Under the pieces are notes generated by a model, which made no database searches, was not told where the DNA came from, and saw nothing but the letters and a program-made list of their open reading frames with translations. A stretch of DNA of 10,614 nucleotides from the NCBI GenBank assembly GCA_902796785.1, contig CADBQJ010000206.1, forward strand, positions 1-10,614. Direction: 5' to 3'. Source of the stretch: Fibrobacter succinogenes (lineage in GTDB: Bacteria; Fibrobacterota; Fibrobacteria; Fibrobacterales; CADBQJ01). How positions within the stretch are numbered: the stretch's first letter is position 1; each line of letters opens with the position of its first letter. The translations under genes were made by a program, and so were the position numbers. Shown piece by piece: positions 3,504-9,348 of the stretch.

Positions 3504-4888
3504 TTTCCGAGGGCCTCCACGATGGGCATGCTCATCCTGCCGACGTCGCCGGCGCCCATGACGATCACCAGGTCGCCGGGCTTCGTCTTTTCCTTCAGGA
3601 CCGCGACGGCCTCCTCCTTGGAGGAGAGCTCCACGACCTGGCGGTGGCCGCGGCGGCGGGCGGCGTCGGCCACCAGCGCGCTGGTCACTCCGGGGATGGG
3701 CGCTTCGCGCGCGGGATAGACCGGGGCCAGCAGCAGCAGGTCGCACCCGAGGAAGACCGAGCCGAAGGCGTCGGCCTGGTCGCGCGTGCGGGTGAAGAGG
3801 TGCGGCTGGAAGAGGACGACGATGCGCCGCCCGGGCCAGTTGTCGCGGGCCGCGGCCAGCGTGGCCTCGGCTTCCTTGGGATGGTGCGCGTAGTCCTCGA
3901 AGACCTCGACGCCGTTCGCGCTCCCCTTGCGCTCGAACCGCCTGCGCACGCCGGCGAACTGCGCGAGCGCGGTCCGGACGGTCTCGAGCGCCACGCCCTC
4001 CTCCGTCGAGACGGCGACGGCGGCCAGCGCGTTCAGCACGTTGTGGCGCCCGGGGACGCCCAGGACGATCTCCCCGCGGGCTTCGCCGCGGACGACGAGC
4101 CCGAAGGAGGTCTTCTCCCCTTCCGGCCGGATGTCGACGGCGCGGTATTCCGCCTGGGGCGACACGCCGTAGGTGACGACGCGGCGGCGCAGCTTCGGCA
4201 CCACCTCGCGCACGCCGGGGTCGTCGATGCAGGCGGCCGCGTAGCCGTAGAAGGGGATCTTGTTCGCGAAGGTCACGAAGGCCTTGCGGATCTCGGAGAT
4301 GTCGCCGTAGCAGTCCAGGTGGTCGGCGTCGACGTTGGTCAGCACCGCCACGGAGGGGTTCATCTCGAGGAAGGAGCGGTCGTATTCGTCCGCCTCGGCG
4401 ATGAGGAAGTCGCTGTCGCCGTACTGCGCGCCGCCGCCCAGGCGGTCGACGATGCCGCCCACGATGATGGTGGGGCGCAGCTCGGCCTGGTTCCAGATCT
4501 GGCCGATCATCGAGGTGGTGGTGGTCTTGCCGTGCGTGCCCGCGACGGCGATGGAGTACTTGAGCCGCATCAGCTCGCCCAGCATCTCGGCGCGGCGGAT
4601 GACGGGAATCCCCCGCTCCATGCCGGCGAGCCGCTCGGGGTTGTCCTTCGGGACGGCCGAGGAGTAGACCACCAGGTCCACGTCCTTCACCCACTCGGCG
4701 CTGTGGCCCACGTGCACGGTGATTCCGAGCCCGGCCAGGCGGTTCAGGGTCTCGCTCTCCCTGGCGTCGGAGCCGGAGACGACGAACCCGTGGGCGTGGA
4801 GCACCTCGGCGATGCCGTTCATGCCGGCGCCGCCGATCCCCACGAAGTGGATCTTCCGGAAACGGGACGCGGCCACTCCGCCGATCAT
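3500..4888 (-). CDS. murC: UDP-N-acetylmuramate--L-alanine ligase MurC
   Basis: Cytoplasmic ATP-dependent ligase that adds L-alanine to UDP-MurNAc, the first amino acid of the peptide stem. Its 462 residues show the full Mur ligase order. The N-terminal UDP-binding Rossmann motif GIGGAGMNGIAE is at 17-28 and the ATP loop GTHGKTTTT at 117-125. EADEYDRSF is at 165-173, NVDADHLD at 185-192 and GRHNVLNALAA at 280-290. The C-terminal domain has DYAHHP (332-337), FQPHLFTRT (360-368) and MGAGDV (444-449). EADEYD and DYAHHP are typical of MurC rather than the other Mur ligases. No fusion to MurB or Ddl is present. The start is fixed by an ATGA overlap with the murG stop and a GGAGGTG ribosome site just upstream. 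Confidence 0.98.
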   Translation of the reverse strand: MIGGVAASRFRKIHFVGIGGAGMNGIAEVLHAHGFVVSGSDARESETLNRLAGLGITVHVGHSAEWVKDVDLVVYSSAVPKDNPERLAGMERGIPVIRRAEMLGELMRLKYSIAVAGTHGKTTTTSMIGQIWNQAELRPTIIVGGIVDRLGGGAQYGDSDFLIAEADEYDRSFLEMNPSVAVLTNVDADHLDCYGDISEIRKAFVTFANKIPFYGYAAACIDDPGVREVVPKLRRRVVTYGVSPQAEYRAVDIRPEGEKTSFGLVVRGEARGEIVLGVPGRHNVLNALAAVAVSTEEGVALETVRTALAQFAGVRRRFERKGSANGVEVFEDYAHHPKEAEATLAAARDNWPGRRIVVLFQPHLFTRTRDQADAFGSVFLGCDLLLLAPVYPAREAPIPGVTSALVADAARRRGHRQVVELSSKEEAVAVLKEKTKPGDLVIVMGAGDVGRMSMPIVEALGK

Positions 4889-5952
4889 TCCGACACCTCC
4901 GCGTGGAGCTTCTTCGCGATTTCCATGGCGCTGTCGGGGTGGCCGAGCTTCCGGGCCGCCTCGCCCATCGCGCGCAGGCGTTCGGGGTCGTCGAGCAGCG
5001 ACGAGATCTTGTTCCAGAGGTCGTCGGGCTCCGACTCCAGCTCCACCAGCGCGGCGCCGGCGCGTTCCAGCGTGCGGGCGTTGTATTCCTGGTGGTTCGC
5101 CGTGGCGAAGGGGAAGGGGACGAGGATCGTCGGCTTCCCGAAGGCGGTGATCTCGGCCAGCGTGGAGGCGCCGGCGCGGCAGACGACCAGGTCGGCGGTC
5201 TGCATGTAGGGATAGACCTGCGAGACGAAGGCCGCGGGATGGACGTTCGGGAACTCCTTGACCGCGGCGGTCACCTCGTCGATCTGGGCGGGGCCGGTCT
5301 GCCAGACGAAGGCGAGCCCCCTGCGCGCGCCGATCTTCTCGCGGCAGGCGAGCAGGCGGTCGTTGAGCCCCTTGGCGCCCTGCGAGCCGCCCAGCACGAG
5401 CACGCGCCGCTCGGCGCCGGCGAATTCGGCGGGGACGGCGGGCTTTTCCTTCACGGGGAGCGGACGCACCGGGTTCCCGGTCAGCTCCCACGGGCAGCGC
5501 AGCGCCTTGGCGGCGGCGGCGTCGGCCAGGTAGACCTTGCGGGCGAAGCGGCTGGCCACGCGGTTGGCCACGCCGGCGACGGCGTTCTGCTCCTGGAGGA
5601 AGACGGGGACGCCGAGGATCCTGGCGGCCGCGACCACGGGGAGCGAGACGTAGCCGCCCGTGCCCACCACCAGGTCGGGGCGCTCGGCCCGGACGACCTT
5701 CAGCGCCGAGAGCAGCGAGCGGACCAGGCGGAACGGCAGCAGCAGGTTGGCCGCGACGCTTCCGCGCCTGAGCGGCCACGCGAGCACGGGGCAGAAGCGC
5801 CACTTGTCGCCGATCAGGCGGTATTCCATGCCCGCGGTCCTTCCCGCGAAGCAGACTTCGCCGAACCCGGCGCTGCGCCAGGATTCGGCCAGCGCGACCG
5901 CCGGATAGACGTGGCCGCCGGTGCCGCCGCACGCGAACATCACCTTTTTCAT
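4885..5952 (-). CDS. murG: Lipid II synthase MurG (GlcNAc transferase)
   Basis: Peripheral inner-membrane glycosyltransferase that moves GlcNAc from UDP-GlcNAc onto lipid I to make lipid II, which FtsW then uses. The 355-residue length is normal. The first glycine loop GGTGGHVYPA is at 9-18 and holds the family histidine (14). The second glycine loop GTGGYVSLP is at 97-105, and EQNAVAG at 121-127 corresponds to the acceptor-side EQN motif. In the C-terminal donor domain LGGSQGA is at 187-193, RAGASTLAEI at 259-268 and PFPFATANHQEYNA at 279-292. The basic/hydrophobic patch around residues 61-85 may serve membrane association, as in the family. Its ATG overlaps the ftsW stop in an ATGA; GGGAG lies seven to eight bases upstream. 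Confidence 0.98.
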   Translation of the reverse strand: MKKVMFACGGTGGHVYPAVALAESWRSAGFGEVCFAGRTAGMEYRLIGDKWRFCPVLAWPLRRGSVAANLLLPFRLVRSLLSALKVVRAERPDLVVGTGGYVSLPVVAAARILGVPVFLQEQNAVAGVANRVASRFARKVYLADAAAAKALRCPWELTGNPVRPLPVKEKPAVPAEFAGAERRVLVLGGSQGAKGLNDRLLACREKIGARRGLAFVWQTGPAQIDEVTAAVKEFPNVHPAAFVSQVYPYMQTADLVVCRAGASTLAEITAFGKPTILVPFPFATANHQEYNARTLERAGAALVELESEPDDLWNKISSLLDDPERLRAMGEAARKLGHPDSAMEIAKKLHAEVSE

Positions 5953-7070
5953 GCTGCTTCTCCCGTGGATGCCGCCCTGCGCGAGAGTCCGAGGAGGATC
6001 CCGCAGGCGAAAAGCGAAACGATCATGCTGGTGCCGCCGTAGCTGATCAGCGGCAGCGGCTGCCCCGTGGCGGGTCCCATCTGGACGCAGACGCCGACGT
6101 GGATGAAGACGTTGAAGGCGATCAGCAGCGTCATGCCGAACGCCACGAGGAACGCGAAGGTGTCGTCCTGCTCGTCGGCGATCCGGATGCCGCGCCAGAT
6201 GAGCACGCCGAAGCAGACGAGGACGAGGGCCGACCCCAGGAAGCCCAGCTGCTCGCCGAGCATGGAGAAGATCGCGTCGGTGAAGGGCTCCGAGACCTGG
6301 CCGTTCCCCAGCACGCCCTTGCCGATGCCGGTGCCGAAGAGCTGGCCGTTGCCCAGGGCCTTGAGCATGTCGCTCTGGTGCGTGGCGGCGTTGACGGCCA
6401 GGGTCCCCTGCTCGCCCAGCCCGAAGAGCGCCGCGATGCGCGCCCGCGAGTGCGCCTGCCCGAGGAGGACGGCCGCGGCGAGGGGGAGGGCGCCCGCCGC
6501 CAGCAGGCCGAGGTGCCAGAGGTTGCAGCCCCACGCGAAGAGCATGCCGACGCCGATCCCGGTGACGATGAGCGCCATGGAGTTGCTGGGCTCCAGCACC
6601 AGGAGGAACGCCACCATGCCGATGACCATGAGCGGCGGGAGGAGCCCTTCCCTGAAGGACTTGCGCAGGTGCTCCGTGGCCTTGAGCTTGAAGGCGAGGA
6701 AGAAGACGATGGCGATCTTGGCGAACTCGGAGGGCTGGATGCCGAAGGGGCCGCGGAGCCAGCGCTGCGCGCCGTTGATGTTCTTGCCGATCCCGGGGAC
6801 GAGCACGAGGACCAGCAGCGCGACCGCGACGAAGAAGAACAAGCGCGCGCGGCGCTCCCACGCCTTCGCGGGGACGAAGATCGCGAAGGCCATCGCCCCG
6901 AGGCCCAGGACGACGTTGAGCAGGTGGAGCCGCATGTAGTAGGTCGGGGCGTAGCCCTTGACCAGCGCGATGTGCGTGCTGGAGCTGAAGACGATCGCGA
7001 TGCCGAGCGCCAGAAGCGCGAGCACGCTTCCGAGCAGCAGCCAGTCGATCGCCCAGCCCTTCTTCGTCAT
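5949..7070 (-). CDS. ftsW: Septal peptidoglycan glycosyltransferase FtsW (SEDS)
   Basis: Polytopic SEDS-family membrane protein of 373 residues that polymerises lipid II at the septum with its partner FtsI. Many hydrophobic segments span the chain, the first at about 9-30. SEDS landmarks include QRWLRGPFGIQPSEFAK (102-118), EPFTDAIFSMLGEQLGFLG (261-279) and GQPLPLISYGGTSM (336-349). Asp265 in FTDAIF corresponds to the catalytic aspartate of FtsW/RodA. FtsW is preferred over RodA because of its position before murG in a dcw cluster; motifs alone do not exclude RodA. The normally conserved QPDxG motif reads LEPSNSMAL here (159-167), lacking the aspartate. The start is set by an ATGA overlap with the preceding gene and a GGAGAGG ribosome site. 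Confidence 0.95.
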   Translation of the reverse strand: MTKKGWAIDWLLLGSVLALLALGIAIVFSSSTHIALVKGYAPTYYMRLHLLNVVLGLGAMAFAIFVPAKAWERRARLFFFVAVALLVLVLVPGIGKNINGAQRWLRGPFGIQPSEFAKIAIVFFLAFKLKATEHLRKSFREGLLPPLMVIGMVAFLLVLEPSNSMALIVTGIGVGMLFAWGCNLWHLGLLAAGALPLAAAVLLGQAHSRARIAALFGLGEQGTLAVNAATHQSDMLKALGNGQLFGTGIGKGVLGNGQVSEPFTDAIFSMLGEQLGFLGSALVLVCFGVLIWRGIRIADEQDDTFAFLVAFGMTLLIAFNVFIHVGVCVQMGPATGQPLPLISYGGTSMIVSLFACGILLGLSRRAASTGEAA

Positions 7071-7960
7071 TTCCTCTCCGTCACCGCGGCGGCCCACTTG
7101 GAGCCGAGTTTGAGCGCTTCGACCTCGCCGCATCCGATCGCCGGGAAGCAGATCACGGTCTTCTCGCCTTCGGAGAGGGCGAGGACCTTGCGGAGCGCGG
7201 CCTCCATCGACGGGACGGCGTAGACGTCCACGTAGCGGCGGAGGATGCCTCGCTGCGAGCGGGGAAGGTCCATCAGGTGGATCAGGGTGGAGCCGCCGGC
7301 GATCAGCGTCTCCTCGAGGCGCGAGTCCAGGAGGATGAAGCCGCCGCCCAGCACCACCAGCGCGGGCTCGGCGCTCCAGCGGAGCGCGCGGTTCGCCTCC
7401 TGCTGCGAGCGGAAGCCGTAGCCGTTCAGGAAGCGCAGGCCGCCGCGTTCGCCGATCTCCTCGAACTGTCCCGGGCCGAGGCAGCAGCGCATCAGCCCGT
7501 CGCGCATCTCCTCGGGCTCGGCGCCCTGCCAGGCGGCCCACTGCAGCGCGCAGACCACCACGTCGAGCCAGCCGGGGTCGAGCAGCTTCAGCTCGTCCAC
7601 GACGGCGATCACGTGCGAGCAGCGGCGCCGGACCAGCGAGATCATCCCGTCGGCCACGCGGACGCGGCCGTCCTCGACGCCGGGCTCGCGCGCCATCTCC
7701 AGGGCGGCGGCGGTCGTCTCGCGGTCCACCCGCAGCGACGAGAAGTCGTCGCGGATCTCGAGCGCGTCGGACGGGCCGAGCGGCGCGCCCACGCGCAGCC
7801 GCGTCTTCCCGGGGAAGTCGATCGCCTCCCAGAGGTCGGCGAAAAAGGCCTGCCACCCCAGCGCGGGGCGGGCTTCCATCGTGGATTCGCGGAGCAGCCA
7901 CAGCTGCTCGCGGCGCGCCAGGAGCTCTTCGGCGGCGGTCGCTGCCATCGTTTCCGTCAT
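7067..7960 (-). CDS. Degenerate MurD-like protein (probable pseudoenzyme)
   Basis: A 297-residue protein in the usual murD slot. Residues about 121-297 can be aligned by eye, with no gap across the first 70 or so residues, to the end of the MurD central domain and its C-terminal domain. VDELKL (121-126) matches the strand before the HN motif, LGPGQFEEI (161-169) matches GLPHRFE, and GLRFLNG (174-180) matches GVRWIND. LVVLGG (201-206) matches the LLLGG strand and TVICFPAIGC (268-277) matches VLLSPACAS. There is no UDP-binding Rossmann region, no GxxGKT/S P-loop and no carbamylated-lysine region. HN is GW (130-131), HR is GQ (164-165) and NDSK is NGYG (179-182). Ligase activity is therefore very unlikely. 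Residues 1-95 resemble nothing I recognise; there is no transmembrane helix or signal peptide. It is an intact frame with a GGAGGAG ribosome site and ATGA overlaps at both ends, so it appears maintained. An alternative start four codons downstream is possible. Function unknown. Confidence 0.8.
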   Translation of the reverse strand: MTETMAATAAEELLARREQLWLLRESTMEARPALGWQAFFADLWEAIDFPGKTRLRVGAPLGPSDALEIRDDFSSLRVDRETTAAALEMAREPGVEDGRVRVADGMISLVRRRCSHVIAVVDELKLLDPGWLDVVVCALQWAAWQGAEPEEMRDGLMRCCLGPGQFEEIGERGGLRFLNGYGFRSQQEANRALRWSAEPALVVLGGGFILLDSRLEETLIAGGSTLIHLMDLPRSQRGILRRYVDVYAVPSMEAALRKVLALSEGEKTVICFPAIGCGEVEALKLGSKWAAAVTERK

Positions 7961-9348
7961 CGTCTCTCCTCCTTCGTTCCCAGGGCCTCCACCACGCGCT
8001 CCAGGTGCATGGAGTGCGAGGCCTTCACCAGCACGAGGTCCCCGGGGTTCACGGTCTTTTCGAGCGCGGCGATCGCCTCCGCGGCGTCGGCGCAGCGGGT
8101 CCACCGCTCGGCGGGCAGCCCGCGGCGGACGGCGGCCTCCCCGATCGCCTCGGAGAGGGAGCCGACGGTGACCAGGCGGTCGAATCCGTTGGCGGCCACC
8201 AGCTCGCCCATCTCGGCGTGCATCCCGCGCGCCCCCTCGCCCAGCTCGAGCATGTCGCCCAGCACCGCCACGCGGTCGCCGGCGGCGCGCATCCGGCCGA
8301 CGGTGGCCAGGGCCGCGCGCATCGAGGTGGGGTTGGCGTTGTAGCAGTCGGCGGCCACGCGCACGCCGTTGCATTCGCGCAGCTGCATCCGCAGGTCCGC
8401 GCCGCGGAACCCGCGCAGGGCCGCGGCCATCTCGCCCTTGGGGATCTTGAAGAGCGTCCCGACCGCGATCGCGCCCAGCGCGTCGTAGAGGCAGTGCATG
8501 CCGGGGACGCCCAGGCGGAACTCCGTGCGGCCGATGGTGAACCGGGCGCAGGCGTCGTCGTCCCAGGTCAGGTTCTTGGGGCGCACCTGCCCGCGCTCCA
8601 CGCCGAAGGTCATCAGCTTGTGGCGCGAGGTGGAGCGCAGCCTGCAGAGCATGTCGTCGTCGGCGTTGACCACCAGCCAGCCGCCGGGCCGCAGCCCCTG
8701 GGCGATGCTGCTCTTCTCGCGGAACACGCCCGCGCGGTCGCCGAAGAACTCCAGGTGCGAGTCCCCCACCATCGTGATCAGCGCCACGTCGGGCTGCACG
8801 GCGTTCGAGAGCGGCGCGATCTCGCCGGGATGGTTCGTCCCCATCTCCACGACGGCGTAGCGGTGCTCGTGGCGCAGGCGGAAGAGCGTGAGCGGCACGC
8901 CCACCTGGTTGTTGTAGTTGCCCTCGGTGGCGATGCCGTTCCAGCGGCGGGAGAGGATCGCGTCGATCATCTCCTTCGTGGTGGTCTTGCCGTTGGAGCC
9001 GGTGACGGCGATCCTGCGGACGGAGAAGCGCTTCGCGTATCCGGCGGCCAGGCGCAGCAGCGCCTCGCCCGTGTCCTTCACGGGGACGTAGGCCCCGATC
9101 TCGCCCTTCTGCGCCGCCACCCATTTCTCGTCGACAATCGCCATGACAGCTCCTTTCGCCAGAACCTGGCGGACGAAATCGTGCCCGTCGAAACGTTCGC
9201 CGCGCAGCGCGAGGAAGACCGACCCCTCGCCGGCCAGCCTCGAGTCGAGGCAGAGGTCCACGTCGCGGTCGAGCGCGTCGGACGGGGCGCCGCAGAGCGG
9301 GGCTCCGAGAAGCGAAGGCAGTTCCGCGATCTTCAGTTTCAGTTCCAC
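7957..9348 (-). CDS. murF: UDP-MurNAc-tripeptide--D-Ala-D-Ala ligase MurF
   Basis: Cytoplasmic ATP-dependent ligase that joins D-Ala-D-Ala to UDP-MurNAc-tripeptide, giving the pentapeptide precursor. With the GTG start it has 463 residues, close to the family length. The N-terminal substrate-binding domain has DSR (35-37) and FLALRGERFDGHDF (45-58). The ATP loop is VTGSNGKTTTK (115-125), followed by GNYNNQVGVPLTL (143-155), VVEMGTNHPGEI (166-177), NADDD (228-232), CYNANPTSM (335-343) and GDMLELG (364-370). Two usual motifs are altered: GxHNxxNAL reads GMHCLYDAL (283-291) and KGSR reads KASH (442-445). The GTG at 9348 is chosen because GGAGGA sits six bases upstream and the chain then matches the normal MurF beginning. 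An ATG at 9363 is the alternative and would add five residues. It overlaps murE by ten bases and the next gene by ATGA. Confidence 0.96.
   Translation of the reverse strand: MELKLKIAELPSLLGAPLCGAPSDALDRDVDLCLDSRLAGEGSVFLALRGERFDGHDFVRQVLAKGAVMAIVDEKWVAAQKGEIGAYVPVKDTGEALLRLAAGYAKRFSVRRIAVTGSNGKTTTKEMIDAILSRRWNGIATEGNYNNQVGVPLTLFRLRHEHRYAVVEMGTNHPGEIAPLSNAVQPDVALITMVGDSHLEFFGDRAGVFREKSSIAQGLRPGGWLVVNADDDMLCRLRSTSRHKLMTFGVERGQVRPKNLTWDDDACARFTIGRTEFRLGVPGMHCLYDALGAIAVGTLFKIPKGEMAAALRGFRGADLRMQLRECNGVRVAADCYNANPTSMRAALATVGRMRAAGDRVAVLGDMLELGEGARGMHAEMGELVAANGFDRLVTVGSLSEAIGEAAVRRGLPAERWTRCADAAEAIAALEKTVNPGDLVLVKASHSMHLERVVEALGTKEERR

Follow-up and report, generated by a model that had tools for sequence, protein, structure and literature searches.

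A presumed MurD-derived pseudoenzyme kept between murF and ftsW in the dcw cluster of a gut Fibrobacterales bacterium

Introduction

What can be the role of a gene which stands where murD is expected, resembles murD over part of its length, and encodes a protein of 297 instead of about 440 amino acids? This question is raised by a window of 10,614 nt (contig CADBQJ010000206.1, assembly GCA_902796785.1), the whole stretch of DNA analysed here, which belongs to the genome of a gut Fibrobacterales bacterium (G000). The gene, hereafter X, occupies positions 7067..7960 of the minus strand (297 codons plus the stop), and its product in the window is referred to as P0001. The preliminary description of this DNA had proposed that X is a catalytically dead derivative of MurD (UDP-N-acetylmuramoyl-L-alanine:D-glutamate ligase, TIGR01087), that it replaces murD in the operon, and that it is maintained for another job. 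We use "class Fibrobacteria" as our own label for the same-class group, consisting of families f1 to f5; the genome of the window belongs to f1.

Results

Position, neighbours and relatives of X

With names assigned by homology and order, the cluster in this genome reads murE, murF, X, ftsW, murG, murC, ftsQ, ftsA, ftsZ. By homology, murF lies directly upstream of X (7957..9345, minus strand, start provisional) and ftsW directly downstream (5949..7070, minus strand). The stop of murF overlaps the start of X in an ATGA (7957..7960, minus strand), the stop of X overlaps the start of ftsW in a second ATGA (7067..7070, minus strand), and an AGGAGG resembling a ribosome site (7968..7973, minus strand) is found 7 bases before the ATG of X, within the 3′ end of murF. 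The good ribosome site and the exact coupling on both sides that had been described can therefore be read directly in the window.

Only one other genome of this genus and family (G001) is present among the 167 phylum genomes searched. Its gene order is identical across the murE-ftsZ cluster and its copy of X, like that of G000, has no stop codon in frame; the overlap with ftsW is absent, the X stop ending at L007:8894 and ftsW starting at 8898. The length of the protein is 297–299 amino acids in four full-length close relatives (P0002 and P0004–P0006). A further metagenome protein of 223 amino acids (P0003) is a mosaic, its first half being G001-like and its second half like the X of the window, which points to recombination or misassembly. 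In both f1 genomes mraY lies outside the dcw cluster (L032 on G000:C260 and L033 on G001:C48).

A scan of genome contigs returned one relative, on G001's own contig. When an alignment of eight X rows was run against the 167 phylum genomes, six matched at E up to 0.1, including G000 and G001; the other four were partial matches (E 0.017–0.059), one of which (L047) was read, and all four were judged to be due to chance. This search is insensitive to distant forms, because it left both f5 genes described below unreported. Plasmid records contained no match to X at E up to 0.01.

X derives from MurD

The MurD-pattern motifs listed in the preliminary description are all found where they had been placed, namely VDELKL at residue 121, LGPGQFEE at 161, GLRFLNG at 174, VVLGG at 202 and VICFPA at 269. 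A profile-profile comparison of six X rows with 15 canonical MurDs from sister classes gave a score of 65.9, the maximum in 100 column-shuffled controls being 31.0; the near-copy P0002 and the mosaic P0003 were left out of the profile tests. The NCBIfam murD model was matched by 5 of the 8 X-family rows (best E 1.3e-5). P0001 by itself matched neither this model nor any Pfam family, and the curated TIGR01087 cut-off (211.95 bits) was not reached, the best X row scoring 24.5 bits. Searching the PDB with the sequence of P0001 found nothing at E up to 10, and the X profile matched a single MurD in the PDB (3lk7, E 0.86). The first profile comparison, of X with own-class MurD (11 close rows), was likewise weak (probability 17.9%, E 0.0014).

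Structure prediction followed by structure alignment indicates that the predicted fold of X matches solved Mur-ligase C-terminal domains. The best model has a pLDDT of 90.1 (76–80 for the other four), its input alignment having contained MurD rows. A chance likeness between X and MurD is ruled out by the shuffled controls and by the X-only model. Two other identities suggested by database matches, an aldolase (NCBIfam PRK05718, E 0.15) and TrbD (E 0.029), were judged to be chance. Overall, profile scores, NCBIfam matches and fold establish that X is a derivative of MurD.

The murF-ftsW slot in other families and a second short MurD-like gene

The interval between murF and ftsW was examined in 27 loci drawn from the 167 phylum genomes. 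In 3 of 3 sister-class loci it is occupied by murD, which means that X sits where murD stood ancestrally. In one of these sister-class loci (L103 of G092, about 3593–6310) murF and murD form one continuous frame; such frames comprise 940 and 958 amino acids in G092 and G091, respectively. Within the class, X is present in 2/2 loci of f1, and in 2/2 loci of f5 the interval measures 913 and 916 bases. A gene of this size is absent from f2 (9/9 loci, 8 genera), f4 (9/9 readable loci, L109 being unreadable for this interval) and f3 (1/1), with gaps of up to 282 bases. The slot gene is thus dispensable in the class, since 19 of 19 readable loci of these three families do without it. A murF tree places f1 and f2 as sisters (89/84) and leaves f3, f4 and f5 unresolved; given this tree, the presence of the gene in f1 and f5 implies either several losses or two parallel shrinkages.

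The interval in f5 contains, in both genomes, a gene for a protein of 305 amino acids, ATGA-coupled on both sides to murF and ftsW. Its product matches the NCBIfam murD model with E 1.4e-16 and 1.4e-14 (60.7 and 54 bits, below the cut-off of 211.95) and, among PDB entries, P. aeruginosa MurD with E 1.3e-12. A protein search with the f5 sequence, in which 7998 candidates were scored, yielded 32 matches at E up to 1e-12, consisting of 31 proteins of 185–310 amino acids and one full MurD of 461; some of these f5-type proteins are automatically named MurD in databases. For the f5 alignment 28 of the 31 were used, the shorter pieces P0025, P0029 and P0038 being left out. The f5 protein lacks the same UDP-binding domain and P-loop as X, and both f5 genomes also encode a full-length MurD elsewhere. 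Thus, X and its f5 counterpart are alike in slot, coupling, length and missing parts, whereas they are only 16–20% identical, and the f5 family retains more MurD signal and is under stronger constraint.

Domains and catalytic motifs lost or kept

The model of X can be aligned to MurD only from MurD residue 101–127 onwards in 28 of 30 MurD rows, and from a later residue in the other two; the UDP-binding domain is therefore gone. By structure alignment, residues ~25–161 (7478..7888, minus strand) correspond to a shrunken Mur central domain without a P-loop, and no GxxGK motif occurs anywhere in the sequence of X. The expected site of the P-loop is ALGWQA at residues 33–38 (7847..7864, minus strand), which contains no lysine; residue 40 of the model falls at MurD 118 in several rows, the register being uncertain. 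The remaining residues 162–297 (7070..7477, minus strand) form a Mur-ligase C-terminal domain whose catalytic loops are altered. Compared with MurD, then, X shares the fold of the C-terminal domain and of part of the central one, and the slot that murD occupies in sister classes, but it has neither the UDP-binding domain nor the P-loop, as had been described, and it is without most catalytic motifs.

The roles of the MurD residues which hold ATP and D-Glu are general knowledge on this enzyme, and their fate was followed in 10 canonical MurD, 28 f5 and 5 X rows. The P-loop lysine is absent from 33/33 f5 and X rows, its column holding R in 28/28 f5 rows and E or R in 5/5 X rows (with uncertain register in X). 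The column of the carbamate lysine is a gap in all 33, and the asparagine of the HN motif and the lysine of NDSK are likewise missing in 33/33. Some residues survive: the HR histidine and the D of NDSK in 28/28 f5 rows, and the HR arginine in 3/5 X rows, so that the loss claimed for the HN, HR and NDSK motifs applies to most of these residues. New conserved motifs have appeared at the old catalytic loops, namely the F and R of GHAFR in 5/5 X rows and FDD and CT in 28/28 f5 rows. Since X has neither an ATP site nor a UDP site, catalysis by X is unlikely.

These new motifs would suit a protein that binds a ligand (D-Glu, a nucleotide or a muropeptide) as a sensor, or one that has acquired a new catalytic activity. 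We consider such a function improbable, as the UDP-binding domain and the P-loop are missing and most residues by which MurD holds ATP and D-Glu are gone. In particular, with the UDP-binding domain lost, sensing of a UDP-MurNAc-peptide becomes less likely than docking.

The working MurD is encoded elsewhere

A full-length MurD is encoded in G001 on contig C84 (321.7 bits, profile positions 2–439 of 441), directly downstream of a gene that we read as an M16-type peptidase; no other dcw gene was seen on this contig. The contigs of G000 yielded no complete murD. A murD match at E 1e-40 is absent also from 11 other genomes of the 167, and missing murD matches are common in draft assemblies. Contig C91 of G000 carries the same end of the peptidase gene (59% identical to G001), followed by an ATG and 26 murD codons, 15 of 26 identical to G001, at which point the contig ends; shuffles of this 26-residue peptide gave at most 8 identities. 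On the other flank the synteny is broken, because contig C264 of G000, on which an OmpA-like gene followed by murD was expected as in G001, carries other genes instead. The murD profile also hit contigs C241 and C278 of G000; these hits are not murD but a MurC/Mpl-like protein (our naming) in two parts, at the end of C241 and the start of C278, perhaps one gene cut by a contig break. A search of the genomes for a second murD thus finds the complete gene in G001, and in G000 its first 26 codons. The full MurD elsewhere in G001 and the orthologous start on C91 rule out a functional replacement of murD by X, and this part of the preliminary description has to be abandoned.

The 11–13 kb read around the relocated murD in f3 and f4 gave no match to any other dcw gene. 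The relocated MurD of the class (including L048:7625-8965, minus strand) has an unusual consensus, with a P-loop GKG[ST] and NDSYATRP instead of NDSKAT, the NDSYATRP form being present in 25/25 own-class full-length MurDs of families f1 to f5; the relocated MurDs of f1 and f2 are also without the HR histidine.

Origin of X and of the f5 gene

Two sources of X can be envisaged, the MurD once encoded in the operon and the relocated MurD of its own class. With the X profile, operon-type MurD scores 65.9, the f5 family 48.7 and own-class MurD 40.9, a gap which may partly reflect the different diversities of the templates (3.4, 2.4 and 3.0, respectively). The best X row reaches 23.7 bits with the operon-type HMM and 4.1 with the own-class HMM (4.4 and 1.8 for P0001), and the 28 f5 proteins (28/28) score 61–85 and 19–43 bits with the same two models.

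A tree was built from the C-terminal regions of 41 rows, including 10 of the 28 f5 proteins and 5 X rows; 10 of the 15 canonical MurDs were used in the joint alignment. Own-class MurD forms one group (100/100) that includes neither X nor f5. X and f5 lie on one side of a branch with support 82/88, which is not starred and carries a long-branch warning, and the stem of X amounts to 5.3 changes per column, indicating strong divergence. AU tests rejected none of the placements examined, neither X with own-class MurD (p 0.058), nor f5 with own-class MurD (p 0.262), nor X with canonical MurD (p 0.263). Since the tree alone is indecisive on the origin of X, the argument rests on the profile scores and on the slot, from which it is quite likely that X descends from the operon murD.

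The opposite origin, in which X would be a lineage-specific duplicate of the relocated own-class MurD that landed in the dcw cluster and decayed there, unrelated to the f5 gene, appears distinctly unlikely. It draws on the AU result for X with own-class MurD and on the sampling of X from two f1 genomes only; it is opposed by the lower profile and HMM scores of X against own-class MurD, by the exclusion of X from the own-class group, and by the coincidence that landing precisely in the ancestral murD slot would represent.

Whether X and the f5 gene go back to a single short form is a separate matter. A common origin is rather probable to us: slot, coupling, length (297 and 305 amino acids) and missing parts are all shared, the profile score of 48.7 between the two exceeds the shuffle maximum of 29.0, and both lie on one side of the unstarred 82/88 branch. 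These same points speak against two operon-murD remnants that shrank independently and do not constitute one conserved family, a course of events that we regard as rather unlikely even though the families f1 and f5 are not sisters, three families of the class are gene-less, and the identity between the two proteins is so low.

Selection on X and on the f5 gene

From Nei-Gojobori counts on one genome pair each for X and f5, X has a dN/dS of 0.556 (interval 0.40–0.77) between G000 and G001, with 0.70 for residues 1–120 and 0.48 for residues 121–297. Its neighbours are lower (murE 0.267, murF 0.294, ftsW 0.327, murG 0.266, murC 0.290), and among the division genes ftsQ (0.564) is similar to X, ftsZ giving 0.484. 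Between the two genomes no gene of the cluster has diverged more than ftsA (1421–2692 of the window, minus strand), which is 48% identical and has a dN/dS of 0.765, higher than that of X. The f5 gene has a dN/dS of 0.086 (0.05–0.13), like its murF (0.106); with a dS of 1.59 between the two f5 genomes, this ratio is rough. Purifying selection acts on both X and the f5 gene.

The persistence of X could still be explained if it were a decaying pseudogene, or a spacer for murF-ftsW translational coupling whose protein is functionless. Its dN/dS is the highest of the compared genes bar ftsQ and ftsA, particularly over the first 120 residues, f2, f3 and f4 manage without the gene, and stop codons seldom arise at a GC3 of 0.95. 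However, the dN/dS interval excludes 1, GC2 is 0.48 at that GC3, the f5 gene is far more constrained, no stop is found in either f1 genome, the length is kept in the four full-length relatives, and in other families murF and ftsW are neighbours without this gene. Decay is therefore an unlikely account, and the earlier view that X is kept holds, as does the expectation of an intact copy in a close relative, G001 being the one available.

Discussion

The data support the view that X is a Mur-ligase-derived pseudoenzyme and that a second, better constrained family occupies the same slot in f5. On balance, the explanation we favour is that X is a remnant of the ancestral operon murD, kept without catalysis, perhaps for docking. 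The match in slot and ATGA coupling with f5, the profile scores, the tree and the dN/dS values are the points counted for descent from the operon murD and for retention; the divergence of X, the unstarred branch, the AU tests, the absence of the gene from f2 to f4, the residues that are kept and the MurD rows in the input of the model count against.

According to this explanation, the working MurD of the class, which is encoded elsewhere, would be of a different type, and the displaced ancestral dcw murD would have persisted in the operon as a pseudoenzyme. The old operon copy would have lost its UDP-binding domain, P-loop and most catalytic motifs and vanished from most of the families examined, and a coupled version of ~300 amino acids would have stayed in f1 and f5. 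X, whose synthesis would be in step with that of MurF and FtsW, would keep a binding face of MurD and serve for docking or spacing; the partner of its retained Mur C-terminal domain would be a further Mur enzyme, MurG or the complex around FtsW. We put forward such a non-catalytic docking role in a Mur/MurG/FtsW assembly tentatively. More speculative still is the wider scenario, in which the class may have swapped its type of D-Glu ligase and the evicted operon enzyme may survive, in two lineages or more, as a stripped, dead subunit organising the Mur/MurG/FtsW assembly.

An inactive homologue in cell-wall synthesis has a parallel in mycobacterial CwlM, an inactive amidase homologue which is said to regulate the cell-wall pathway without catalysis. 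Both CwlM and X are homologues of cell-wall enzymes, but CwlM has another fold and acts at another step of the pathway, and we claim no sequence relation. MurT is described as a component of an active amidotransferase, the MurT/GatD lipid II amidase, and as able to bind ATP analogues, whereas X has no ATP site and lies in the dcw cluster. The history of this cluster is described, in the excerpted part of the source, as mainly gene loss or delocalisation, likely with no gain (PMC8871954); a displaced murD that stays at its old site in dead form would be compatible with that part of the reconstruction, which does not describe such a case. In a search of the full-text literature, the titles and abstract beginnings among the matches listed mention neither a dead MurD in the dcw cluster nor a relocated murD of Fibrobacteria.

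Here a presumably dead copy stays under selection next to ftsW, and the complete MurD has a locus of its own. Occupying the murD slot does not by itself make a gene product the MurD enzyme, and this matters for the reconstruction of pathways from metagenomes. Structural roles of Mur ligases are hard to test because these enzymes are essential; here evolution has apparently separated catalysis from operon position, which makes the question of a structural role testable. If the wider scenario is true, MurD would fulfil a structural task in the dcw complex, one that can be separated from its catalysis.
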